Shown: positions 19,911 through 34,840 of the stretch, one piece after another
Position numbering within the stretch: position 1 is the stretch's first letter
How the letters are laid out: each line of letters begins with the position of its first letter
Origin: Acidobacteriota bacterium
GTDB taxonomy: Bacteria; Acidobacteriota; Vicinamibacteria; Vicinamibacterales; JACPPN01
Assembly: GCA_016190995.1 (NCBI GenBank)
Contig: JACPPN010000141.1
Span: 1 to 45,644 of the forward strand
Direction of reading: 5' to 3'
Length of the DNA: 45,644 nt
Notes under the pieces: model-generated
Databases searched by the model: none
Told to the model about the DNA's origin: nothing
Seen by the model: the letters and a program-made list of their open reading frames with translations, nothing else
Translations under genes and position numbers: made by a program

Positions 19911-21461
19911 ATGCCTGACCCGGCCTGCGCCCTTGTTGTAGATGACATGGAGGAGGCCCGTTGGGTCCTCTCCAATCTCCTCAGGGGGGAGGGTGTGGTG
20001 CCGGTAGCGGCCGCGAACGGGGAAGAGGCTCTGACCCGCCTTCGGCACCAGTCGTTCAACGTGGTGCTTCTCGATGTCCGCTTGCCGGATATGGACGGTT
20101 TGGCAGTGCTGACGCACATCAAGGGGCAGCAGAAGGACGTGCCCGTGATCATGTTCACGGGGTACGGGACTCCGAAGGACGCGGTCCGCTTGCTGAAAGC
20201 CGGGGCGTACGACTACCTAACCAAGCCCTTCAACAACGACGAGGCCCTCGGGACCATCCGCCGGGCCCTCGAAACATCGCCGCCTGAGCGCGAGTTCCGG
20301 CGATTCCGCGACGAGGCCCCGCGGCCGGCTCCCTTATCTGAAACGATGGGGAGCAGCCATGCTGTTCGAGACCTGATGGTGCAAGTGGCACGGGTCGCCC
20401 CGACGAACTTCTCTGTCTTGATTACCGGTGAGACCGGAGTGGGCAAGGAACTGGTGGCCCGCGCCGTTCATGGGTGTAGCGCCCGTGCTGGCAGGGCATT
20501 CGTGACCGTGGATTGCGGCGCCATTCCGGAGACCCTCATTGAGAATGAGCTGTTCGGACATGAGAAAGGCGCCTTCACCGGTGCCGATCGGGCTATGGCC
20601 GGGGCCTTCGAGCTGGCCCCCGGGGGGACGCTGTTCCTCGATGAGATAGGGAACCTGCCCCTGCCAATGCAGGCGAAGCTGCTGCAAGCCATCGACGAGA
20701 GACGAATTCAGCGGCTTGGCAGTGGGAAGACCCTGCAGCTCGATCTGCGGATACTCGCCGCAACCAACGAAGATCTGCACGCGATGGTGGAGCGACGCAC
20801 GTTTCGCCGGGATCTGTACCATCGCCTGGTGGAGTTCACGATTTCTGTCCCTCCGCTGAGAGAGCGGAAAGAGGACCTTCCGTTCCTCGTCAAACGCTTC
20901 TTGGATCTTACCAATCAGGAATTGGGCAAAAGCGTGCGAGGCCTTCAGGAGGCGGCTTGGAACGAAGTTCAGCTCTACGACTGGCCCGGCAACGTTCGGG
21001 AGTTACGCAATGTTGTTCGCCGTGCGGTGCTGCTCGCCGATAGCAAGGACGAGCTGATCACGTCGCGCCACCTAACCATAGGCGGGCCAACGAGCCAGGG
21101 GCACGGCCGCTACTCGTGCTCACCCATGGATTGCTCGGCTTGCGGTGACGGCTGGTCGCTCGTCTGTGCAGGGCTGCAACAGGATTGGGCCTCATGGCTG
21201 AGCAAGTTTGGCACCCATCCTCCGCTGAAAGAGGCCATGCGGCGAGCGGCAGGTCGGGTGGAGTACGTACTCTTAAACCAGGCGCTGCAACAGGCCAAGG
21301 GCAATAAGGCTGAAGCTGCTCGGCTCCTACATGTCGACTATAAGACTGTTCTTACGAAGTTGAAAGCTCATAGTATTTTCGATCCCGTCAGATCAGAGGA
21401 AGGGGCAGTCCATGACCACCAAGCGCAGCGAGGAGTTCGACGAGGGGAAACGCCGGCTTGA
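19911..21461 (+). CDS. Sigma-54-dependent response regulator (NtrC family), probable gvp regulator
   Basis: Receiver ALVVDDMEEARWVL...VVLLDVRLPDMDG; AAA+ GETGVGKELVARAVH, GHEKGAFTGADRAM, GGTLFLDEIGNLPL; Fis-type C-terminus GNKAEAARLLHVDYKTVLTKLK. Confidence 0.95.
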   Translation: MPDPACALVVDDMEEARWVLSNLLRGEGVVPVAAANGEEALTRLRHQSFNVVLLDVRLPDMDGLAVLTHIKGQQKDVPVIMFTGYGTPKDAVRLLKAGAYDYLTKPFNNDEALGTIRRALETSPPEREFRRFRDEAPRPAPLSETMGSSHAVRDLMVQVARVAPTNFSVLITGETGVGKELVARAVHGCSARAGRAFVTVDCGAIPETLIENELFGHEKGAFTGADRAMAGAFELAPGGTLFLDEIGNLPLPMQAKLLQAIDERRIQRLGSGKTLQLDLRILAATNEDLHAMVERRTFRRDLYHRLVEFTISVPPLRERKEDLPFLVKRFLDLTNQELGKSVRGLQEAAWNEVQLYDWPGNVRELRNVVRRAVLLADSKDELITSRHLTIGGPTSQGHGRYSCSPMDCSACGDGWSLVCAGLQQDWASWLSKFGTHPPLKEAMRRAAGRVEYVLLNQALQQAKGNKAEAARLLHVDYKTVLTKLKAHSIFDPVRSEEGAVHDHQAQRGVRRGETPA

Positions 21462-22011
21462 AGAAATCGGGCGCAGGCTCGGGAACCTGTTCGGAAAGCC
21501 AGGCCCAGCCAAGAGGCAGCAGTCCGGGCTTGGCGCGTTTCTCGGCGGGCTCGGCGGCCTCATCGAACAGGTGAGCGACCTGGCAGAGAAGGCCGAACAG
21601 GCGGGAGGCGAAGTGACCGAGACCGGCGAGTTCGGTGTGGGATCGGAGAAACCGGTCCGGGCGGTGTACGGGTTTACGGTCAAGGTCGGTCTCGGCGAGA
21701 AAGGGCTCAAGGTTGAACCTTTCGGAAACGTCCGCAAAGACGAGCACAGCGGTCAGGTTGTCGTGAGACCGATTCGGGAGCCGATGTCCGATGTGTTCGA
21801 CGAACCGGACCACATTCTGATTGTGGCCGAGGTGCCGGGGATCATGCAGGAGGATGTCCGGCTGGAACTGCACGAGGACATCCTCACGCTTGCCGCGGAG
21901 CGGGGCGATACGAGATACCGCAAAGAAGTGCTCTTGCCGAGGAGTGTTTCACCCGACAAGATGAGTTTCAGCTGTCGCAATGGGATTCTGAACGTCAAGC
22001 TCCCCAAGTAG
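21412..22011 (+). CDS. gvpH: GvpH-like gas vesicle protein with Hsp20 alpha-crystallin domain
   Basis: N-terminal LGAFLGGLGGLIEQVSDLAEKAEQ; C-terminal PMSDVFDEPDHILIVAEVPGIMQEDVRLELHEDILTLAAERGDTRYRKEVLLPRSVSPDKMSFSCRNGILNVKLPK. Confidence 0.85.
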   Translation: MTTKRSEEFDEGKRRLEEIGRRLGNLFGKPGPAKRQQSGLGAFLGGLGGLIEQVSDLAEKAEQAGGEVTETGEFGVGSEKPVRAVYGFTVKVGLGEKGLKVEPFGNVRKDEHSGQVVVRPIREPMSDVFDEPDHILIVAEVPGIMQEDVRLELHEDILTLAAERGDTRYRKEVLLPRSVSPDKMSFSCRNGILNVKLPK

Positions 22012-22036
22012 CGCAGCCCTTCGCTTCTGACATTCA

Positions 22037-24199
22037 ATGGCTAAAGATGCGGACACTAGGGAGATGAACGCCGACGGCACCCTGCACCTGAAAGTGACCG
22101 AGGCGCTCGCCAAGGACGTCGGTCGAGCGCTGGCCAGGATGGATCCTGCTGATATCAAGGCCCTTGGAGCTGAGATTGGCGACATCGTGGAGGTTTCCGG
22201 AAAGCGCAGCACCGCCTGCAAGCTCATGCCGGCTTACAAGGAAGAACGCGCGGGGTCCCGGATCCAGCTCGACGGCCTCTCGCGGACAAATGCAGGCGTG
22301 GCTCTCGACGATGTCATATCGGTGCGCAAGGTGCGCGCGCAGCCCAGTCAGCGGCTAGTCCTGTCTCCCACTACCGTTGCCCCGACGGACCGCGACCTGA
22401 CCTACATCGGGAACTTGCTTGATGGCCTGCCGGTGATGGAAGGCGATCAGATTCGGGCCATCCTGTTCGGGAGCCGTCACATCGACTTTGTCGTCCGGGA
22501 GACCGGCCCCAAGGGGCCGGTTATCATCGTGCCCACGACGGCTCTCAGAGTGGAACCGCCGCGCGCGGAAAAGGATGCTCACCGGACCGGCCGTCCCACC
22601 CTGTCCTACGAGGACATCGGCGGGCTCAAGCGCCAGCTCCAGCGCGTGAGAGAAATCATCGAGCTCCCCTTGCGCTATCCGGAAGTGTTCGCCCGCCTGG
22701 GGATTGACGCACCCAAGGGGGTTCTCCTCCATGGACCGCCGGGGTGCGGGAAGACGCTGATCGCGCGGGCCGTTGCCCACGAAACGGACGCGAGCTTCTT
22801 CGCGATCACCGGGCCGGAAATCGTCCACAAGTTCTATGGGGAGAGCGAGGCTCACTTACGCAGGATCTTTGACGAGGCCACCAAACGCGCCCCGAGCATC
22901 ATCTTCATTGACGAGATCGACGCCATCGCCCCCCGTCGCGAAACCGTTGTTGGTGACGTGGAGAAGCGGGTCGTCGCCCAACTGCTGGGCCTAATGGACG
23001 GCCTCAAAGCTCGCGGGCAGGTCCTCGTCATTGCGGCGACCAACCTCCCCAACGCCCTCGACCCGGCGTTGCGGCGGCCCGGGCGCTTCGATCGGGAGAT
23101 TGTCATTCCCATCCCGGACCGCCATGGTCGGCTGGAGATCTTGGAGATTCACAGCCGGGGCATGCCGTTGGCCAAGGATGTCGATCTCGTCTATCTGGGT
23201 GAGATCACCCACGGTTTCGTGGGCGCCGATCTGGAAGCGCTCTGCCGTGAGGCGGCCATGAACTGCCTGCGGCGGATCATGCCCGAGATTGATTTTGCGC
23301 AAGCGATGATCCCTCGCGCGGCGCTGGCGGAGCTCGAAGTCCGGCGGGAGGATTTCCTGTCGGCGTTGCGTGAAGTGGAACCCTCGGCCTTGCGCGAAGT
23401 CTTCGTCGAGATGCCCAGTACGACCTGGGATGATGTCGGCGGGCTCGAAGACGTGAAACGGCTGCTCCGAGAGGCCGTGGAGTGGCCGGTCAAGTACCCG
23501 GACCTGTTCGCGGCGGCCGGTGTGAAGCCGCCGAAAGGGATCGTGCTCACCGGGCCGCCGGGCTGTGGCAAGACGCTCCTGGTCCAGGCTCTGGCCAATG
23601 CCACCCAGGTGAATTTCATCGCGGTGAAAGGCCCGGCGTTGTTGTCGAAGTATGTCGGCGAATCGGAACGGGGTGTGCGAGAGGTGTTCCGCAAAGCCAA
23701 GCAGGCATCTCCGTGCATCGTCTTTTTTGACGAGATCGACGCCTTGCTCCCGACGCGCTCGAGCGGCGCTACAGACTCTCACGTCAGTGAACGGGTCGTT
23801 GGACAGTTCCTGGCTGAGTTGGACGGGGTGGAGAAGCTCACGGGCGTGCTCGTCGTGGCGGCGACGAACCGGCCGGACATCCTTGACCCGGCCCTGATGC
23901 GCGCGGGGCGCCTGGACGTGGTGGTGGAGATCTCGCAGCCCAATGAAGAGGAACGTCTGGCAATCCTCAAGGTGCACACGCGTGGCAAATCCGTGAGTAC
24001 GAACGTGTGTCTTGAGGCGGTCGCTGCTCAAACCGACGGCCTGACCGGCGCCGATCTCGAGGCGATCTGCCAGCGCGCCGCGCTGAACGCCGTTCGAGAA
24101 CTGATTTCTGCGAGCCCGGATGTGGCAGACGGCAAGGACATCGCTGTGGTGATTGAACGCCGCCACCTTGAAACGGCTGTGCAGGAGAGCAACCGGTGA
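22037..24199 (+). CDS. Cdc48/p97 (VAT)-type AAA+ ATPase with N domain and two AAA modules
   Basis: N-domain LKVTEALAKDVGRALARMDPADIKALGAEIGDIVEVSGKR; D1 GPPGCGKTLIARAVAHE / IIFIDEIDAIAPRR; D2 GPPGCGKTLLVQALANA / IVFFDEIDALLPTR. Confidence 0.95.
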   Translation: MAKDADTREMNADGTLHLKVTEALAKDVGRALARMDPADIKALGAEIGDIVEVSGKRSTACKLMPAYKEERAGSRIQLDGLSRTNAGVALDDVISVRKVRAQPSQRLVLSPTTVAPTDRDLTYIGNLLDGLPVMEGDQIRAILFGSRHIDFVVRETGPKGPVIIVPTTALRVEPPRAEKDAHRTGRPTLSYEDIGGLKRQLQRVREIIELPLRYPEVFARLGIDAPKGVLLHGPPGCGKTLIARAVAHETDASFFAITGPEIVHKFYGESEAHLRRIFDEATKRAPSIIFIDEIDAIAPRRETVVGDVEKRVVAQLLGLMDGLKARGQVLVIAATNLPNALDPALRRPGRFDREIVIPIPDRHGRLEILEIHSRGMPLAKDVDLVYLGEITHGFVGADLEALCREAAMNCLRRIMPEIDFAQAMIPRAALAELEVRREDFLSALREVEPSALREVFVEMPSTTWDDVGGLEDVKRLLREAVEWPVKYPDLFAAAGVKPPKGIVLTGPPGCGKTLLVQALANATQVNFIAVKGPALLSKYVGESERGVREVFRKAKQASPCIVFFDEIDALLPTRSSGATDSHVSERVVGQFLAELDGVEKLTGVLVVAATNRPDILDPALMRAGRLDVVVEISQPNEEERLAILKVHTRGKSVSTNVCLEAVAAQTDGLTGADLEAICQRAALNAVRELISASPDVADGKDIAVVIERRHLETAVQESNR

Positions 24200-25038
24200 A
24201 GGAATCGCAAGACGCGACCACGGCCACCGGCGTCTACCTCTACTGCCTGGCGCGTCCCACGTGCCTCTCAGTTGTGACAGATCTCGCTGAGCACGGTGTT
24301 GGCGTCGATGAGGGGTACGGGGTGTCCTCGCTGGAGCACGATGGGGTGGTTGCCGTTGTCGGGCGGGTCGATCCCGGTGAGTTTCACGATGAGAACATGC
24401 AGACGTTGAAGTGGGTTGGTCCCCGTGCTCTGCGTCACGAAGCCGTTGTAGAAGCAATTATGGTCACATCCCCGGTCCTGCCGGTCAAATTTGGGACGAT
24501 CTTCAGCTCGCTGACGAGTCTCGAAAGTCTGCTGGCCCGCCATCACGACACCATCTCGCGAACTCTGGAGGAACTGTGCGACAAGGCCGAGTGGAGCGTG
24601 AAGGGCTACCTCGAGGAAGAGGCCGCCCGCCGACATCTCGCTGCTGCGGACCTCGCCGTTCAATCCCGGCTTGCGCGGCTCTCGCCGGCGCCGGGCGCGC
24701 GCTACTTTCAGCAGAAGCAAGTGGACGCCATGATTGACGGGGCCCTGCGGGTGTGGGTGAAGAACGTGACCCAGGACATCCACGCGGCGCTCGCGGCGCA
24801 TTCTGCGGAGTCGACCAAATTGAGCATCCGATCCAGCACCGCGAGCGCACGCTCGGAACCACCGATCCTCAACGACAGCTTCCTGGTGAGCCGGTCTGCG
24901 TTGCCCGGCTTTTGCGCCGCTGTTGAAGGTCAGAAACGAGCTTACAGTGAGAACGGTCTGACGCTAGAAGTACGAGGGCCCTGGCCGCCCTACAATTTTT
25001 GTCCGAATCTCACCGGTTCTGGCCCGGACGATCGATGA
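24196..25038 (+). CDS. gvpF: GvpL/GvpF family gas vesicle protein
   Basis: GVYLYCLARP...EAIMVTSPVLPVKFGTIFSSLTSLESLL...LTLEVRGPWPPYNF; GTGA overlap with the AAA+ gene. Confidence 0.92.
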   Translation: MKESQDATTATGVYLYCLARPTCLSVVTDLAEHGVGVDEGYGVSSLEHDGVVAVVGRVDPGEFHDENMQTLKWVGPRALRHEAVVEAIMVTSPVLPVKFGTIFSSLTSLESLLARHHDTISRTLEELCDKAEWSVKGYLEEEAARRHLAAADLAVQSRLARLSPAPGARYFQQKQVDAMIDGALRVWVKNVTQDIHAALAAHSAESTKLSIRSSTASARSEPPILNDSFLVSRSALPGFCAAVEGQKRAYSENGLTLEVRGPWPPYNFCPNLTGSGPDDR

Positions 25039-26567
25039 AAAAGAGCGCCGCTTTCGCCGCAGCGGACGAGCCTTTGACCGACAAGACAGCGACGCTGCGC
25101 CCGGCCACGCCGTTGGAAGGCTGGTACGAGAGACTCTACACGATGCTCTTGGCGAGTATCCCATTCTCGCTCATCGTGATCGACCGGTCGCTGCAGATCG
25201 TCTCCGCCAACCGCAATTTCCTCGAGAAATCGCGGCGTCGCGAGCGCGATACGCTGGGTGCTCGCGTCAGTGAGATCTTCCCGAGCGCGATCTTGGGTTA
25301 CACACGCCTGGAAGCCAAGATCCAGAGGGTCTTCGAAACCGGAAAGCCGCTGGACGGCGAGCAAATGACCTACCGCGCACCTGGTATCCCGACGCGGATC
25401 TATTACTACACGGTTGTCCCGATCAAACGGGACGACGGGATGGTCGAGAACGCGCTGCTCCTGATGGACGACATCACCGAGAAGGTGAACCTGATCGAAA
25501 AGACCCGCTGGATCGAAGGCCACCTGGCGAGTGTGGTTGAGAATGCCAACGACCTCGTGATCTCCACCGATTCAGAGGGGCGCGTCATCACGTGGAATCC
25601 GGCTGCGGAGCACGTCTCTGGCTATCGAGCCGAGGAAGTGGGAGGACGACAGCTCGCCGACCTGTGCGACCCGGGCCAGCGACAAGAGATGACAGCGATC
25701 ATTCAGCAGCTCGTCACCGGACACGAGGTGAAGTCCCTTGAACTGAACCTTCTCGCGAGTTCCGGGAAGTCGGTTCCGGTTGCCTGGTCGTGTTCGCCGA
25801 TGCGCGACGACTCGGGGCACGTGAGTGGCGTCGTGGCGGTTGGACGAGACCTGTCTGAGCGCCGGGCGTTCGAGATGCAGCTGTTCCAGAGCGAGAAGCT
25901 CGCTGCCCTGGGCATCATGGCGGGGGGCATCGCTCATGAGCTGCGCAATCCCCTCTCGGTCAGTTTCTCCGCGGCACAGTTTCTGCTCGCGCAGCCACTG
26001 GACGAGACGTTCCGCGAGGAATGCATCCAGAAAGTCATCAGCGGCATCCAGAGGGCGTCTACGATCATCGAGACGCTGCTGCACTTCGCCAAGCCCTCGG
26101 AAAACGCTCGACTACAACCGGTCGACCTGGGGGCGCTGGTGCGGGAGACCGTGCGTCTTGTCGCCCACCAAGCGAGACTCCAAAAGGTCAAGCTGAGTCT
26201 GCACTCTTCCCTGTCGCCCGTGTCGATCCTGGGGAATGCGAACCTTCTGCAACAGGTGGTCATGAACCTGATCTTGAACGCCTGCCAGGCGATGCCCACC
26301 GGTGGCGACCTCGCGATCGCGGTGGACCACGAGGAGGCCGATGCAATCGTGCGTATGCAGGATTCGGGTTGCGGGATCTCGCCGACGAACCTGAGAAAGA
26401 TCTTTGACCCGTTCTTCACCACACGGCCGATCGGGAGTGGCACAGGCCTGGGGCTGACCATGAGCTACACGATTGTGGAACAACATCGGGGCAGCCTTGA
26501 GGTAGAAAGTGTGGAAGGCCAGGGCAGTACGTTTACCGTCCGCCTACCGCTCGCGCCATGGGGCTAG
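25035..26567 (+). CDS. PAS-domain sensor histidine kinase
   Basis: SIPFSLIVIDRSLQIVSANRNFLEKS; LGIMAGGIAHELRNPLSVSFSAAQFL (H box); NLILNACQAMPTGG; IFDPFFTTRPIGSGTGLGLTMSYTIVEQHRG; ATGA overlap with gvpF. Confidence 0.95.
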   Translation: MKKSAAFAAADEPLTDKTATLRPATPLEGWYERLYTMLLASIPFSLIVIDRSLQIVSANRNFLEKSRRRERDTLGARVSEIFPSAILGYTRLEAKIQRVFETGKPLDGEQMTYRAPGIPTRIYYYTVVPIKRDDGMVENALLLMDDITEKVNLIEKTRWIEGHLASVVENANDLVISTDSEGRVITWNPAAEHVSGYRAEEVGGRQLADLCDPGQRQEMTAIIQQLVTGHEVKSLELNLLASSGKSVPVAWSCSPMRDDSGHVSGVVAVGRDLSERRAFEMQLFQSEKLAALGIMAGGIAHELRNPLSVSFSAAQFLLAQPLDETFREECIQKVISGIQRASTIIETLLHFAKPSENARLQPVDLGALVRETVRLVAHQARLQKVKLSLHSSLSPVSILGNANLLQQVVMNLILNACQAMPTGGDLAIAVDHEEADAIVRMQDSGCGISPTNLRKIFDPFFTTRPIGSGTGLGLTMSYTIVEQHRGSLEVESVEGQGSTFTVRLPLAPWG

Positions 26568-27019
26568 GACATAGGATTACATGGGTGATGCGACGGTTGA
26601 GTGCGGCGGCGACGGCTCGGTGTGTCCTCGTTGTAGACGATGACGCGGATGTGTGCTGGGCCTTGGACAGGCTGCTGCAGGGCGAGGGCTTCACGGTCTT
26701 GACGGTGGGGAGCGGCGCCGAAGCCCTCGCGGCCCTCAAGGAGACAGTGTTCCGTGTGATCCTCGTCGATGCCAAGCTCGCGGACATCGAAGGGATCGAT
26801 CTGGCGCAACGCATTCAGGCTGAAACACCGAGTAAGGCTCCGCTGATCTTGGTCTCCGGGTACTTCTACGCTGACGACAAGGTCGTGCAGGAGTGCTTGG
26901 GGAAAGGGCTCTTTTCCACCTTCGTCACGAAGCCGTTTCTTCACGAGGATCTGCGCCGAGCCGTTCGAAAGGCCCTATGGAGAGGAGCCGGCGTCGCGAG
27001 TATGGAGTGCCTTCCATAG
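26558..27019 (+). CDS. Response regulator receiver protein paired with the histidine kinase
   Basis: CVLVVDDDADVCWALDRLLQGEGFTVLTV...VILVDAKLADIEGIDL...FVTKPFLHEDLRRAV; overlaps HK 3' end. Confidence 0.92.
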   Translation: MGLGHRITWVMRRLSAAATARCVLVVDDDADVCWALDRLLQGEGFTVLTVGSGAEALAALKETVFRVILVDAKLADIEGIDLAQRIQAETPSKAPLILVSGYFYADDKVVQECLGKGLFSTFVTKPFLHEDLRRAVRKALWRGAGVASMECLP

Positions 27020-27124
27020 CGCCGCCTCCCCAGTATCATGATGCACCAACTGGGTCTGACAATCCACGCGACCCGTCACGCCAACGGCTTCTCACCCAGC
27101 ATAGGTTTCCGATTTCATTATCTT

Positions 27125-27158
27125 GCCTGGAATTCGACGACCGAGTCGTTTGCCAGGC
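27125..27158 (+). promoter_or_regulatory. 34-bp nested dyad upstream of gvpA (candidate regulator binding site)
   Basis: GCCTGG-aatt-CGAC-gaccga-GTCG-tttg-CCAGGC: two concentric perfect arms with symmetric spacing. Confidence 0.55.
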
Positions 27159-27203
27159 TTCGCTCGCGGGCAACGGTGACGTGAGAAACTCGAGGTCTCG
27201 TCG

Positions 27204-27220
27204 TGCGCACACTTCTTGCT
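27204..27220 (+). promoter_or_regulatory. Weak candidate sigma-54 -24/-12 promoter upstream of gvpA
   Basis: tgcGCAC-N5-TTGCT compared with TGGCAC-N5-TTGCW; the GG of the -24 box is imperfect. About 90 bp upstream of gvpA, with an upstream dyad. Confidence 0.3.
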
Positions 27221-27310
27221 AGTTCCCTTCCGGGTCCCTCCCTGGACGCGCAGTGCCCAATGCCGTCTTCTCAGAAATCTATCTCAAGGGGAGAAAGGAG
27301 GTGAGTGCGG

Positions 27311-27529
27311 TTGGCCAAAGTACAGAAATCGACGGACTCCTCAAGCTTGGCAGAAGTCGTGGACCGGATCCTGGAAAAAGGGATCGTGATCGACGCGTGG
27401 GCCAAGGTGTCGCTGGTCGGCATCGAGCTACTCTCGATCGAGGCGCGTGTTGTGATCGCGTCGGTCGAGACCTATCTGAAGTACGCGGAGGCGATCGGTC
27501 TTACAGCCAGCGCGGCTGCGCCGGCGTAG
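27311..27529 (+). CDS. gvpA: Major gas vesicle structural protein GvpA
   Basis: [68 protein letters not shown] at 27311 is well placed after AAAGGAGG (27294-27301); ORF track uses GTG at 27305. Confidence 0.97.
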
Positions 27530-27617
27530 GGACCGGCGCGATCGAGTCCGCACCGGTGAGGGAACCCGAGGGGCCCCCTTCCCCGGTCGGCGCCGGCCGA
27601 AAGGAGAAAGAGTTCTC

Positions 27618-28649
27618 ATGATGGGCACTAGCTTTAGAGACGAGATGCAGGCACTGACCGACAGCATCCTCACCTCGACGCGAGCGCGCAAGGGTACGGT
27701 GGACACGATCAAAGCGCAAGCCGACAGCATGTTGACGGCGTTTGCCCGGGACCGTGCGGCGGCGGCGGAGACCCAGAACGCCGCTCGATCGGCCGAGCGC
27801 CAGGCCAGAGCCACGGGCCGTCGGGCTCGCGTCGTGGAGGTCCGAACGATGCGCCAACGGTTTCGCCGCGACCACGAGCGGATGTGGCGAGATCTCCCGC
27901 GGCGGCTCGCCCAAACCGACAGGACCATCGTCGCCTATGTGGCATCCCGCTTGGCTGACTCGGCAACAGTCCGTCGCCGGATGGCCAAGGCCCAAGACCG
28001 GATGGCGAAATCGCAACGGGACGGGCTGGCGGCCGGCCGCCGGAGCCGCTCCGGAGCGGTGGTCGATCTCACGGACGGCTTTGGTACGGCCCGCCGAGTC
28101 AGCGCACAGCGGCTTGCGGGAGGCCTGGAAGCATTCATGACAGAGCTGCAATCCCGCGTAGCCAGCCTGCTCGCCAATGCACGCACGGCTCGCACGGAGG
28201 GCCGACGCGAAACGGCGAAGGAACTGGAACAGGTGATCACAGCCGTGCGAAACCGAACGGACGCGATTGCGGCCGACACGCGAGGGCTCTTGAATGGATT
28301 TCGGCGATCGCACGCCGACATGGCCGGCCGACTCCAGGACGACCTAACCTCTGGCGCAAAAGAGCGCCGCGCCGAAGTCGGTCGCCTGCTGGCCGGCTTC
28401 AGATCCTGGCTTGGGGCACTCTCGGAGGATCTTCTGGCCGCCCACCACATCTGGAATAGCTTGCCGCCCGTCCAGCCCGCCGTCGCGACGCGGCGAGCGA
28501 CCCCCGCGATGCGGGCCGGGGCCGTGGGAGGCGATCGGTGGGCGAAGGCGCGTGTGCAGGCGGAAGCAGCCGCACGAAGCGAAGCCGAGGAAGACAGAAG
28601 CAAGCGAGAGGCGCGCGCGACCGGCCGAAAAGGCAAGAGTGCACCCTAG
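27618..28649 (+). CDS. gvpC: GvpC-like gas vesicle outer-surface/scaffold protein
   Basis: Immediately downstream of gvpA; LEAFMTELQSRVASLLANARTARTEGRRETAKEL resembles the GvpC repeat LLAFHKELQETSQQFLSATAQARIAQAEKQAQEL; LLNGF to LLAGF period is exactly 33 residues. Confidence 0.75.
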   Translation: MMGTSFRDEMQALTDSILTSTRARKGTVDTIKAQADSMLTAFARDRAAAAETQNAARSAERQARATGRRARVVEVRTMRQRFRRDHERMWRDLPRRLAQTDRTIVAYVASRLADSATVRRRMAKAQDRMAKSQRDGLAAGRRSRSGAVVDLTDGFGTARRVSAQRLAGGLEAFMTELQSRVASLLANARTARTEGRRETAKELEQVITAVRNRTDAIAADTRGLLNGFRRSHADMAGRLQDDLTSGAKERRAEVGRLLAGFRSWLGALSEDLLAAHHIWNSLPPVQPAVATRRATPAMRAGAVGGDRWAKARVQAEAAARSEAEEDRSKREARATGRKGKSAP

Positions 28650-28736
28650 GAACGCTGATCCAGCCAGCTCTTTTTGCTGCGCGCTGAGAAGAGTGGCTGG
28701 TCGGCCGCGTCGGCGCGCGAGGAGCCTGTGCCGCGT

Positions 28737-29771
28737 ATGAGCTACCAGGAAGAACTGACCGTCCTGACCTTGGAGAAGCAGCCCGACTTCGTTGAGACTC
28801 CCTACATCGAGAGTCTCACCACGCGGGCCCTCGACTATGTCAGAGCGGGGTATCCGGTCCATTTCTGCGGGCCTGCCGGCACCGGTAAGACTGCTCTGGC
28901 GATGCACGTGGCCGCCAGGCTGGGCCGGCAGGTCATTTTGATCCACGGCGACGACGAGTTTGGGAGCTCCGACCTGATTGGCGGACAGTTGGGCTATCGA
29001 TCGACCAAGGTGATTGACAACTTCATCCACTCGGTCCTGAAAAAAGAAGAGAGTGTCTCCAAGCAGTGGGTGGACAACCGGCTGACGACGGCGTGCAAAT
29101 ACGGATTCACCCTCATCTACGACGAGTTCACCAGGTCTCGGCCCGAGGCCAACAACGTGCTGCTCGCGATTCTGGGAGAGCGATTGCTCGAGCTGCCCAG
29201 CGTGCGTCTCGGAGAGGGCTACATTCAGGTGCACCCGCATTTCAGCGCCATTTTTACCAGCAACCCTGAGGAGTACGCCGGCGTCCACAAGACTCAAGAT
29301 GCCCTGATGGACCGCATGATCTCGCTCAAGCTGGATCACCCTGACCTCGAGACCGAGGTGGGTATCACGCAGGCGAAATCGGGCATCCCATGGAGAGACG
29401 CGAAAGCGATTGTGGCTATCGTCCGCGAGTTCCGCACCCTCGGCGTGAACAACGCGCGCCCGACGATCCGAGCCTGCATCATGCTCGGCCGTATCGTCGC
29501 GATGCGGGGCGGCACGGTGGCCGCCGGCGATCCGACGTTTCGGGAGCTGTGCCGCGACGTGTTGAACGCTGACTACATCAAAGTCACGCGCGATGGGCAA
29601 GCGGCCGGTCTCGAGCGGCTGGATGAGATCATCGAAAAGTGCTGCCCCCGCTCGTCCACACTCGTTGTGATCGCGGCGGAATCCCCAAGGACGGCTCCAC
29701 CACCCGCCCGCCGCAGGCAGCCGCTTGTCAACGTGGCATCGGCAGCGGAGGGAGCTCATCATGGGGCTTGA
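28737..29771 (+). CDS. gvpN: Gas vesicle protein GvpN (MoxR-type AAA+ ATPase)
   Basis: PDFVETPYIESLTTRALDYVRAGYPVHFCGPAGTGKTALAMHVAARLGRQVILIHGDDEFGSSDLIGG...LIYDEFTRSRPEANNVLLAILGERLLELP...FTSNPEEYAGVHKTQDALMDRMI. Confidence 0.97.
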   Translation: MSYQEELTVLTLEKQPDFVETPYIESLTTRALDYVRAGYPVHFCGPAGTGKTALAMHVAARLGRQVILIHGDDEFGSSDLIGGQLGYRSTKVIDNFIHSVLKKEESVSKQWVDNRLTTACKYGFTLIYDEFTRSRPEANNVLLAILGERLLELPSVRLGEGYIQVHPHFSAIFTSNPEEYAGVHKTQDALMDRMISLKLDHPDLETEVGITQAKSGIPWRDAKAIVAIVREFRTLGVNNARPTIRACIMLGRIVAMRGGTVAAGDPTFRELCRDVLNADYIKVTRDGQAAGLERLDEIIEKCCPRSSTLVVIAAESPRTAPPPARRRQPLVNVASAAEGAHHGA

Positions 29772-30087
29772 CAGGCGGGGTGTGCAACAGATTCGAACCA
29801 TGGCGAGGCTGGTCGATGGTCGCCGCAGCCGCACCGCGCACGGCGCGTTGCTGGAGCTTTCCATGCTCGAAATGGAAAAGCAGCGACTCCTGCGGGAGAT
29901 GCAGCGAGCCGAACGGCGATGCACCGAGATTCGGAGGCGAGTGGCTGACATCAACGTCAAGGAACAGCGACTCCACCGGTTTACCGAAAATCGTGGGAGC
30001 GCGGCGCCAGAGCAACCGCTCGCCTCACCACTTCCGACCTATGCAGTCCCGACGGAGAAGCTGCGAAGAAGGCGGCTGTCTTACTGA
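29761..30087 (+). CDS. GvpV-like coiled-coil protein
   Basis: ALLELSMLEMEKQRLLREMQRAERRCTEIRRRVADINVKEQRLHRF; overlaps the gvpN 3' end and lies between gvpN and gvpF as gvpV does in other clusters. Confidence 0.6.
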   Translation: MGLDRRGVQQIRTMARLVDGRRSRTAHGALLELSMLEMEKQRLLREMQRAERRCTEIRRRVADINVKEQRLHRFTENRGSAAPEQPLASPLPTYAVPTEKLRRRRLSY

Positions 30088-30139
30088 GCGGGGCGGAGTC
30101 CTGCGCGCCAGTCGCTCGCGCTTCACCGGAGTCGCGCCC

Positions 30140-30355
30140 ATGAGGAACATTCCGACTTCTCGTGATGCCAAGTCCTCCTTGCGAGGAGCGGCGTTTCAAA
30201 CGGTGTGGACCCTGAACAGCCGCGGCGTCGCGTGTCGCATGCGCAAAGAGATCATGACGCTGCGGCGACTGCGTCAGGATCCATTGGATCTGGTGAGCGG
30301 ACACGCCCTGCGCGGCTGGATGCGTATCCGCCGTGGCACTGTCATGGTGACCTGA
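30140..30355 (+). CDS. Small uncharacterised gvp-locus protein (about 71 aa)
   Basis: MRNIPTSRDAKSSLRGAAFQTVWTLNSRGVACRMRKEIMTLRRLRQDPLDLVSGHALRGWMRIRRGTVMVT*; its TGA overlaps the ATG of the next gvpF (TGATG). Confidence 0.5.
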   Translation: MRNIPTSRDAKSSLRGAAFQTVWTLNSRGVACRMRKEIMTLRRLRQDPLDLVSGHALRGWMRIRRGTVMVT

Positions 30356-31158
30356 TGTCAACAGAAACGCGTGACATCGCGCGCACAACGACGCCAAGGC
30401 CGGCGGCCAGGCTGGACTCCGGGCCGGCACGCTACGTGTACGGCATCACTTACGGGAGCATGCATCGGCGGTACGTAGGTCTTGGCCTCGATGGCGCTAC
30501 GGTGTACGCCATCGGCCTCGGGCCGATCGCCGCGCTGGTGAGCAACGTAGCCACGAAGCGGTTTCGACCCGAGCGCGGCAAGCTCGCGGCCCACCACGGC
30601 GTCATCAAGAGGTGTGCCGGGGAAGGAGCGGTTCTGCCGGTGGCGTTCGGGACCATCGCTGACAGCGACGACGCCGTACGAGAGATCCTGGAGAAGAACA
30701 GGGAGGCGTTCCTGGAACAATTGAATGGCGTTCGCGGGAAGGTCGAGATGGGCCTCCGCGTCGCCTGGGACGTCCCCAACATCTTCGAATATTTCGTGAA
30801 ACATCACGTGGAGCTGGCAGCGTTGCGCGATCACGTGTTTGGCAAACAGCGCGGTCCCTCCCATGAGGACAAGATCGAGCTGGGTCGCTTGTTCGATCAC
30901 TTGCTGGGCGAGGAACGGGAGGCTCACACCGAAAAGGTGGAAGACATCTTGTCGGCGCGGTGTGCCGAGATCAAGCGCAATCCGCCGCGGAACGAACGGG
31001 AGGTGATGAACCTCGCCTGTTTGGTCGAACGGGAGGCGCTGAAAGGATTCGAGGACGGCGTGTTTGCGGCGGCCAGGCTCTTCGATAACAACTTCGCCTT
31101 TGATTTCAACGGACCATGGGCTCCGTACAATTTCGTCAGCGTGGCGCTGGAGCTGTGA
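30355..31158 (+). CDS. gvpF: GvpL/GvpF family gas vesicle protein (second copy)
   Basis: RYVYGITYGSMHRRYVGLGLDG...AVLPVAFGTIADSDDAVREIL...FDFNGPWAPYNFVSVALEL. Confidence 0.94.
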   Translation: MSTETRDIARTTTPRPAARLDSGPARYVYGITYGSMHRRYVGLGLDGATVYAIGLGPIAALVSNVATKRFRPERGKLAAHHGVIKRCAGEGAVLPVAFGTIADSDDAVREILEKNREAFLEQLNGVRGKVEMGLRVAWDVPNIFEYFVKHHVELAALRDHVFGKQRGPSHEDKIELGRLFDHLLGEEREAHTEKVEDILSARCAEIKRNPPRNEREVMNLACLVEREALKGFEDGVFAAARLFDNNFAFDFNGPWAPYNFVSVALEL

Positions 31159-31565
31159 CCGCTCGCATGTTCCTCGTGGACGATTTATTGCTGGCGCCGT
31201 TCTCAGGCCTGCTTTGGGTCTTCAAACAGATCTATGAGGCGGCCGAGCAGGAACAGGCCCAAGAGGCGGAATCCCTGACCGAGTCCCTCGGCGAGCTGTA
31301 CCGAAAGCTCGAGACCGGAGCGGTGACGGAAGAAGAGTTTGCAGCCGGAGAAAAGATGCTCCTCGACCGACTGGAGGCAATCCAAGGCCGGGACGAAGAT
31401 GTCCAGGAAGAGCCTGAGGATGAATCCGAAGTTACTCAAGCCGAAGACGAGGAGATCGAGGATGTCCCTGCAGAGATAGAGGACCATTTCGACGGGCAAG
31501 AGAGCGAGGACGAGCCCAAAGAGAACGGGATCGACCAAGACCCCGAAGCGAGCCATAACAAATAG
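31155..31565 (+). CDS. gvpG: Gas vesicle protein GvpG with acidic C-terminal extension
   Basis: MFLVDDLLLAPFSGLLWVFKQIYEAAEQEQAQEAESLTESLGELYRKLETGAVTEEEFAAGEKMLLDRLEAI; start GTG 31155 or ATG 31167. Confidence 0.92.
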   Translation: MTARMFLVDDLLLAPFSGLLWVFKQIYEAAEQEQAQEAESLTESLGELYRKLETGAVTEEEFAAGEKMLLDRLEAIQGRDEDVQEEPEDESEVTQAEDEEIEDVPAEIEDHFDGQESEDEPKENGIDQDPEASHNK

Positions 31566-31628
31566 GAAACGTGGAGAGGTTGAACCCCCTTCGTTCACCG
31601 GACGCAACCGCCGCAAGAGGAGGGCAAG

Positions 31629-31982
31629 ATGGAGTCAGGTAACGAACCCGGGCCGGCGGAGTTGCGCGCGAGCGAGCCCGGAACGAGCGAGCGTAGTGTT
31701 GGCGAAGTTGGAGGGCCGCTAAAATCCGCAAGGGCTTCCGGGTCCGAGAGACCTGGCGGGGCGGACCAGATAGCGCTCGAACGGCTTCTCGCGATGGCAC
31801 AACGATACCGGAACGAAGGACGACTGTGGCTGGCGATGGAGCTGTACTGGAAGCTCGTCGAGAAGCACCCAGAAGCGCCGCAATCGGACGTTGCACAGCG
31901 CGCGTTGCTGAAGCTGGCCGGCGACTATGGGCGCGACGGGTTCCGCCACGTCGCTCGCGGCATCTACGAGCGCCTGTTGTAA
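31629..31982 (+). CDS. Small TPR-like protein of the gvp locus (gvpW-position)
   Basis: ALERLLAMAQRYRNEGRLWLAMELYWKLVEKHPEAPQSDVAQRALLKLAGDYGRDGFRHVARGIYERLL; lies between gvpG and a gvpJ-type gene. Confidence 0.6.
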   Translation: MESGNEPGPAELRASEPGTSERSVGEVGGPLKSARASGSERPGGADQIALERLLAMAQRYRNEGRLWLAMELYWKLVEKHPEAPQSDVAQRALLKLAGDYGRDGFRHVARGIYERLL

Positions 31983-31997
31983 CCGGGAGGGGGACCC

Positions 31998-32219
31998 GTG
32001 GCAAGGTGGGATCCAGAAAGCGTCTCGCTGTGCGAGACCCTTGATCGGGTGTTGAACAAGGGAGTGGTGGTTGGAGGGGAGATCGTGATCTCAGTGGCGG
32101 AAATCGATCTTCTCTACCTCGGCGTACAGCTCATGCTCACTTCGGTCGAAACCGCATCCCAGCTCAAACTGACCTTGAGACCGCCGGCGTGGGCTGGCTC
32201 GTCGCCGAGCATCGTATGA
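31998..32219 (+). CDS. gvpJ: GvpA-family minor protein (GvpJ/GvpS type)
   Basis: SVSLCETLDRVLNKGVVVGGEIVISVAEIDLLYLGVQLMLTSVETA; GTG start. Confidence 0.9.
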   Translation: MARWDPESVSLCETLDRVLNKGVVVGGEIVISVAEIDLLYLGVQLMLTSVETASQLKLTLRPPAWAGSSPSIV

Positions 32220-32560
32220 CACGTGAAGGCGGCGTTCTGGCGCGACAGTCCACCAGCGAGGCTCCCGGGGTGATGGGTTCGATCGCCTTCGCCCAGCCAC
32301 CGCGAATCACGCTGGACCCAGAGGACATCAAGAAGGGGCTGGGTCAACTGGTCCTAACCGTGATCCAGTTGATCCGGGAGCTCTTGGAACGACAGGCGCT
32401 CCGGCGCATCAACGCCGGCTCTCTCACGGAGGAGGAGATTGAACGGTTGGGCCTGACCTTCTTGCGGCTCGGCGAGCAGATGGTGTGGCTCAAGAACGAG
32501 TTCGGGCTCGCGGATGAGGATCTGAACCTGGACCTCGGTCCTCTTGGTAGGCTGATCTAG
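32216..32560 (+). CDS. gvpK: Gas vesicle protein GvpK
   Basis: ITLDPEDIKKGLGQLVLTVIQLIRELLERQALRRINAGSLTEEEIERLGLTFLRLGEQMVWLKNEFGLADEDLNLDLGPLG; ATGA overlap with gvpJ. Confidence 0.96.
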   Translation: MTREGGVLARQSTSEAPGVMGSIAFAQPPRITLDPEDIKKGLGQLVLTVIQLIRELLERQALRRINAGSLTEEEIERLGLTFLRLGEQMVWLKNEFGLADEDLNLDLGPLGRLI

Positions 32561-32569
32561 GCACCGCGC

Positions 32570-32902
32570 ATGGCGATCGCGCAAGCAGGTGTGCAACACG
32601 CAGTAGGGTCCGCAACGTTAGCGGACGTCCTTGAGCGGGTCCTGGACAAGGGTCTCGTTATTGCCGGTGACATCAAGATCAAGCTTGTCGATATTGAACT
32701 GCTCACGATCCAGATTCGTCTGTTGATCTGCTCGGTCGACAAGGCGCGTGAGATGGGCATCGATTGGTGGATGACGAATTCCTACCTTAGCTCCCACGGC
32801 AAGCGACACGAGGAGGCGGTGGAGCATAAGCACAAACTGGCGGCTCTGCGAGAGCGCCTCGCTCAAATGGAGGCGCAGGTCGAATTCATGTGTCGGCCTT
32901 GA
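32570..32902 (+). CDS. GvpA-family minor protein (GvpJ/M/S type) with coiled-coil C-terminal extension
   Basis: TLADVLERVLDKGLVIAGDIKIKLVDIELLTIQIRLLICSVDKAREMGIDWW, then KHKLAALRERLAQMEAQVEFMCRP. Confidence 0.92.
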   Translation: MAIAQAGVQHAVGSATLADVLERVLDKGLVIAGDIKIKLVDIELLTIQIRLLICSVDKAREMGIDWWMTNSYLSSHGKRHEEAVEHKHKLAALRERLAQMEAQVEFMCRP

Positions 32903-34014: not shown

Positions 34015-34416
34015 ATTGCGTCGGTCTCTCCTGGGTCCGTCCGTGGACCCACTCATGAACAGAACGTAGAGCTCCGATGCGCAGGCCCGCGGGCACTCTA
34101 CCAAGAGCTGTGCCAGACGCAGTCCGTTCCCAACCATCCATTTCCCAATGCCTTACGGCAGTTCAGGTGGCGTCGTGGGAATGTAGCTCCAGGGAGTACA
34201 TACCTGTAGTACGGGGCTTCACGGCATAGTCGCGGCGGAGGGGCGCAGCTGTGGCCGTAGATGAACCAGCGCGTGGTGCAAGTCCCGCTGGGGGAAATTC
34301 CAGTCACAGATGCCGGAAACTTGGCGCCATGCAACCGTTCGCCGGTGAGCCGTGTTTCTCCAGGCGATGTCTACGGCTCGAGAAGTCCTGGAATGACGAT
34401 TGCTCTCAGGACTAAA

Positions 34417-34430
34417 CGTCACGCGTGACG
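34417..34430. promoter_or_regulatory. Perfect 14-bp palindrome upstream of the cytochrome c gene
   Basis: CGTCACGCGTGACG, about 66 bp upstream of ATG 34496. Confidence 0.4.
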
Positions 34431-34495
34431 GTCTCTCGAATGGCCGAACGGGTTCAACCACTGTGTCGGGATTCCGTTATTCACGGAGAGGATTC

Positions 34496-34840
34496 ATGCA
34501 TTCGGTGATGATTGGTGTCGTGGCGGCCGTGCTGCTGGCCGCGTCTGCGGAGGCGCAGGAGAAAGCCAAACTCGAGCGCGGCAGGCAGGTGTACGCCGAG
34601 CAGAAGTGCACGATGTGCCACTCGATCGAGGGGAAAGGGAACAAGAAGGGGCCCCTCGACGCCGTGGGTAGCAAGCTGACGGCTGACGAAATCCGGCAGT
34701 GGCATCTGGATCCGAAAACGATGGCGGAGAAGACGAAGTCCGTGCGTAAGCCCGCCATGCCGGCATATGCCAAGCTGCCGACGGCGGATCTCGACGCGCT
34801 CGTGGCCTACCTGCAGACTCTGAAGAAAGACGGGCAGTAA
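34496..34840 (+). CDS. Secreted c-type cytochrome
   Basis: Signal peptide MHSVMIGVVAAVLLAASAEAQ; heme motif CTMCH; ADLDALVAYLQTLKK. Confidence 0.93.
   Translation: MHSVMIGVVAAVLLAASAEAQEKAKLERGRQVYAEQKCTMCHSIEGKGNKKGPLDAVGSKLTADEIRQWHLDPKTMAEKTKSVRKPAMPAYAKLPTADLDALVAYLQTLKKDGQ

Follow-up and report, generated by a model that had tools for sequence, protein, structure and literature searches.

Regulation of gas vesicle genes

Classical NtrC-type enhancers, such as that of glnA, are inverted repeats about 100-300 bp upstream of the -24/-12 promoter element and are often paired two helical turns apart; the NtrC consensus is TGCACC-N5-GGTGCA. The closest described gas vesicle system is that of Serratia sp. 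ATCC 39006, in which gvpA1 depends on the NtrC-family protein GvrA, a sigma-54 site precedes the gvpA1 start mapped by 5' RACE, and full expression takes all of gvrA, gvrB and gvrC (PMC4982088). A Serratia rpoN mutant lacks gas vesicles, according to a passage of PMC11778176 that cites Hill 2021. The Serratia gas vesicle texts examined (PMC4982088) make no mention of an enhancer sequence or upstream activating site, and we found no described gvpA enhancer in the literature searched.

The gvr-gvp cluster

The window is the whole 45,644-nucleotide stretch of Acidobacteriota DNA that was analysed. Its gene order is gvrA, a 199-aa gene, a CDC48-type ATPase gene, gvpF/L, gvrB, gvrC and then gvpA, with the following features:

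19911-21461, + strand: gvrA-like NtrC-family response regulator, predicted enhancer-binding protein (Pfam PF00072, PF00158, PF02954)
21412-22011, + strand: 199-aa gene of the gvrA operon, order kept in relatives; in the position of Serratia gvpH and named by position only
22037-24199, + strand: CDC48-type AAA+ ATPase gene of the gvr operon (PF00004 twice, PF02359; synteny); in the position of Serratia gvpZ and named by position only
24196-25038, + strand: gvpF/gvpL-type gene of the gvr operon (PF06386)
24999-26567, + strand: gvrB-like PAS sensor histidine kinase (PF08448, PF00512, PF02518; synteny)
26558-27019, + strand: gvrC-like single-domain response regulator (PF00072 at residues 23-137 of 153; synteny); its last codons carry the enhancer candidate
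26975-26982, + strand: CTATGGAG, possible extra half-site, weak, inside gvrC; the full site follows 25 bp downstream
27000-27019, no strand: GTATGGAGTGCCTTCCATAG, predicted enhancer (UAS) for an NtrC-type activator, matching CTATGGAATNNATTCCATAG and overlapping the last bases of gvrC, stop codon included
27125-27158, no strand: dyad GCCTGGaattCGACgaccgaGTCGtttgCCAGGC, between enhancer and promoter, about chance level, found in no relative; no function assigned
27205-27220, + strand: predicted sigma-54 -24/-12 promoter GCGCAC-N5-TTGCT (matrix rank, distance to gvpA, conservation in locus L045)
27311-27529, + strand: gvpA, main gas vesicle shell protein (PF00741), with Shine-Dalgarno AGGAGG at 27296-27301

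As in Serratia sp. ATCC 39006, a (here predicted) sigma-54 site precedes gvpA, the cluster encodes an NtrC-family activator together with gvrB and gvrC, and the genes run gvrA ... gvrB-gvrC. Unlike in Serratia, the gvr genes of the window lie directly upstream of gvpA and on the same strand, and Serratia adds SmaR quorum-sensing repression. One gvpF-type gene was seen in the gvr operon of the window. The 19911-21461 product has a receiver domain (Response_reg), an AAA+ Sigma54_activat domain with the GAFTGA motif and a Fis-type helix-turn-helix (HTH_8). The gvrA-like genes of the relatives are located in the same conserved cluster, and the GvrA-type DNA-binding helix, GNKxxAARxLxxDYKTxxxKxKxYGI, is nearly invariant among them.

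The closest relative by gvrC (66% identical) and gvpN (83% identical) is L045, which is titled Nitrospirae; gvpA of the window probably starts at TTG 27311, which aligns with the ATG of L045. None of the other genomes among 396 drawn from the phylum carries the gvrC-like protein, so that this sample yields no close vertical relative, and this, with the nearest cluster being titled Nitrospirae, suggests that the cluster at 19911-32902 was gained by horizontal transfer.

The predicted gvpA promoter

The loci compared were 80 with close GvpA relatives from public genomes, plus further loci from same-order genomes; their choice rested on close similarity of GvpA, and they are not independent of one another. 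A scan of the 300 bp upstream of gvpA yields near-perfect TGGCAC-N5-TTGC elements, which typically stand 60-120 nt ahead of gvpA. Among the groups that have them are beta-, gamma- and deltaproteobacteria, Acidobacteria, Rokubacteria and Victivallales. The 41 elements that score at least 13/15 lie 62-121 nt from the gvpA start (median 94), and the corresponding distance in the window is 109.

The window element reads GCGCAC ACTTC TTGCT. Its -12 part is a perfect TTGC at N5 spacing, and its -24 box departs from TGGCAC: GCGCAC keeps the G at -24 and has C at -25, a variant also seen in L045. By a matrix built from 41 gvpA promoters of other genomes, the window excluded, it scores 9.0 bits, and the runner-up within the intergenic region scores 2.2. 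L045 retains the block GCGCACAsTTCTTGCTA in DNA that, upstream of the promoter, resembles the window no more than shuffled DNA does. The genome also encodes rpoN (PF04552 match on contig C6, E 4.7e-65). Comparison across phyla, together with the presence of rpoN, thus supports 27205-27220 as the sigma-54 promoter of gvpA, with a predicted transcription start at about 27231. With C here at -25, a position held by G in nearly all relatives, the element could be a weak promoter or a false call. The original prediction had tentatively proposed this -24/-12-like sequence, about 50 bp downstream of the dyad, in front of gvpA and in the same locus as an NtrC-family activator gene at 19911-21461. The promoter is upheld by its matrix rank (4 of about 91,000 positions on both strands), its usual distance from gvpA and its conservation in L045, while PF00741 confirms gvpA and the three domains named above confirm the activator.

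A scan for a sigma-70 promoter of gvpA gave only one weak match, on the minus strand at 27062-27035. Elsewhere in the window lie its two best sigma-54-like sites, at 34389-34404 (+ strand, TGGAATGACGATTGCT, 13.7 bits) and 34115 (- strand, 14.4 bits). Between the former and an ATG at 34497, which falls within the cytochrome c ORF 34400-34840, there are 108 nt, a distance that matches the one at gvpA; neither site has the enhancer palindrome described below nearby.

In relatives, the first ~25 nt of the predicted gvpA mRNAs often hold a lineage-specific inverted repeat (for example in L056, L093, L086, L020 and L016): ACGAAG-N13/14-CTTCGT in betaproteobacteria, AGGCATGCCT in deltaproteobacteria and TGTGCAGC hairpins in Methylococcaceae. 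Such repeats could be 5' hairpins or operators, and the window's own gvpA leader has none.

A palindrome upstream of gvpA

The best inverted repeats in the upstream regions of the relatives are recurrent, among them CTAGGGAATTCATTCCATAG, CTATGGAATGAATTCCCTAG, CTAGGGAATCGATTCCATAG and similar sequences. Enumeration of exact dyads returned CTATGG-N8-CCATAG, TATGGA-N6-TCCATA, ATGGAA-N4-TTCCAT and GGAAT-N2-ATTCC. They share a single register, which corresponds to CTATGGAATNNATTCCATAG, and as many as 9 of 80 regions carry them, as against 1-3 in shuffles; they are also well above their level in downstream control regions. This 20-bp palindrome matches at 14 or more of 18 consensus positions in 35 of 85 upstream regions (window included), where 0.05 would be expected, and the other 50 fall below that threshold. 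Enhancer-like sites number 39 in 33,870 upstream positions versus 7 in 1,002,832 positions elsewhere in the same loci, and so are about 165-fold rarer per position outside the upstream regions (7 in 1.0 Mb). Measured from the predicted start, the palindromes are centred between -92 and -326 (median 163; 221 in the window), and second palindromes are often found 19-24 bp away, in tandem at about two helical turns. The palindrome is present before gvpA at L084, where the gvr genes face the opposite way, and in Acidobacteria that lack gvrB and gvrC at that place. In 31 of 33 training loci it is free of overlap with the upstream ORF by the test used, and therefore coding constraint does not explain it.

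The layout is like that of classical NtrC enhancers, with inverted repeats upstream and pairs two turns apart; the sequence, CTATGGAATNNATTCCATAG, is unlike the classical NtrC consensus and may bear some likeness to the AtoC site.

In the window, GTATGGAGTGCCTTCCATAG at 27000-27019 contains a perfect TATGGA-N6-TCCATA. It matches 15 of the 18 consensus positions, the next best site in the window matching 12, and it is the only match at three or fewer mismatches in the 3.8-Mb genome, where control matches are none. A held-out matrix, whose training set excluded the window, L045 and the G012 locus, gives it 22.3 bits, as against 6.1 for the next site in the window; in 47.4 million random positions that score is never attained. 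It lies about 120 bp upstream of the dyad, outside the stretch covered by the original prediction. The possible half-site CTATGGAG pairs with 27013-27023 as an inverted repeat and has no independent support. The cluster's own NtrC-type regulator probably binds 27000-27019, to judge from the comparisons above. The link between regulator and palindrome is mainly one of co-occurrence: a divergent DNA-binding helix was seen in two regulators only (L085 and L092), both from loci without the palindrome, and two such cases are too few to serve as proof.

Further enhancer-like palindromes occur beyond the tested regions, at -888 (L049), -2553 (L084), -634 (L035), -705 (L068), -494 (L061), -1631 (L030) and -5652 (L052) relative to gvpA, and perhaps precede further gvp genes or gvpA copies. 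A draw of 395 genomes from the order to which a Shewanella locus belongs gave one other gvpA genome, G535. Its two gvpA genes (L100 and L102) have strong elements of the sigma-54 type (20.4 and 23.0 bits), and both are preceded by the variant GTATGG-N8-CCATAC, suggesting that the outer base pair has drifted in a lineage-specific way.

Proposed regulation and alternatives

We consider it likely that the gvpA operon is sigma-54-dependent, with the GvrA-like regulator acting from 27000-27019 on the -24/-12 element at 27205-27220. The sequence itself shows the palindrome, which recurs across phyla and is unique in this genome, as well as a promoter, a regulator and a gene order that are conserved. 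What we infer is that GvrA binds the palindrome, that GvrB phosphorylates GvrA, that the DNA loops and where transcription starts; the steps would run as follows. Sigma-54 RNA polymerase would wait in a closed complex at 27205-27220, and the GvrA-like regulator (19911-21461) would probably be phosphorylated by the GvrB-like kinase. GvrA-phosphate, as a pair of dimers or a higher oligomer, would then occupy the palindrome, about 221 bp upstream of ~27231, and would reach the polymerase by DNA looping and so open the promoter. The dyad at 27125-27158 would sit in the looped-out DNA, where it requires no function.

The original prediction had instead made that dyad the enhancer, bound by the NtrC-like protein and serving the same sigma-54 promoter, a reading that we regard as very unlikely. 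The symmetric 34-bp nested palindrome that it described is there as written, with pairing in 11 of 14 arm positions (6 outer, 4 inner and 1 between), and its place ~50 bp upstream of the -24 box speaks for it. So does the rarity of its exact outer arms, GCCTGG-N(10-30)-CCAGGC, which occur once in the window with 0.14 expected; this is the sole measure that favours the dyad, and it was picked after the dyad had been seen. Against it, 32% of shuffles of the ~290-bp intergenic region reach that region's best inverted-repeat score (p = 0.32), and inverted repeats of comparable grade (at least 10/14 pairs, 4-8 nt loop) number 217 in the window, where Markov-1 random sequence gives 142-191; for 11/14 pairs or more the numbers are 49 versus 13-32. 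Its RNA fold (z = -1.59) is equalled by 15 of 200 shuffles, and we rejected a terminator role for it in view of this ordinary fold and the absence of a T-run. The dyad hardly rises above chance. The search of orthologous gvp promoters that had been proposed as a check found its outer arms at no other locus among all relatives examined, L045 and G012 included, and the palindrome at 27000-27019 is a better enhancer candidate. Near chance and missing from every relative examined, the dyad yields to that palindrome as our candidate for the gvpA enhancer.

Two further alternatives accept the palindrome and give it another role. It is improbable, though less so than an enhancer at the dyad, that 27000-27019 is bound by some other gvpA regulator, a repressor or a global factor, in place of GvrA. 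Binding by GvrA is deduced from sequence comparison, and Serratia gvpA1 is subject to other factors too, SmaR repressing it directly (PMC4982088). The palindrome nevertheless does not cover the promoter but stands upstream of it, as far off as an enhancer would, and is single-copy in the genome; it tracks the gvr-gvp cluster in phyla that have few regulators in common, and tandem palindromes two turns apart fit an oligomeric activator. Least likely of all, and hardly to be expected, is an RNA hairpin that ends the gvr transcript, as a terminator or processing site, with the promoter elsewhere. An RNA stem would indeed form, and the window palindrome overlaps the gvrC stop codon, but no T-run follows it and the terminator scan lists none there. 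The tandem copies two turns apart speak against a hairpin, as do the general lack of overlap with upstream ORFs and the occurrence of the palindrome before gvpA both with reversed gvr genes and in Acidobacteria without adjacent gvrB and gvrC.

Implications for gas vesicle control

The circuit with GvrA at 27000-27019 is of a known kind in outline; the enhancer motif and its spread appear to be new within the literature searched. One enterobacterium has provided the genetic account of gas vesicle control: it requires GvrA and sigma-54, and no enhancer is named for it in the texts found. On balance we think it probable that CTATGGAATNNATTCCATAG is an undescribed portable enhancer code, and that the GvrA-type activator and its site travelled with the gvr-gvp cluster across several phyla. 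The recurrent sequence before gvpA offers a testable target, indicating which clusters GvrA-type regulators would control, where they would bind and which bases to change. If the proposal is true, the flotation of unrelated bacteria would be under one sigma-54 switch. The regulatory site tends to accompany both its regulator and the structural genes.
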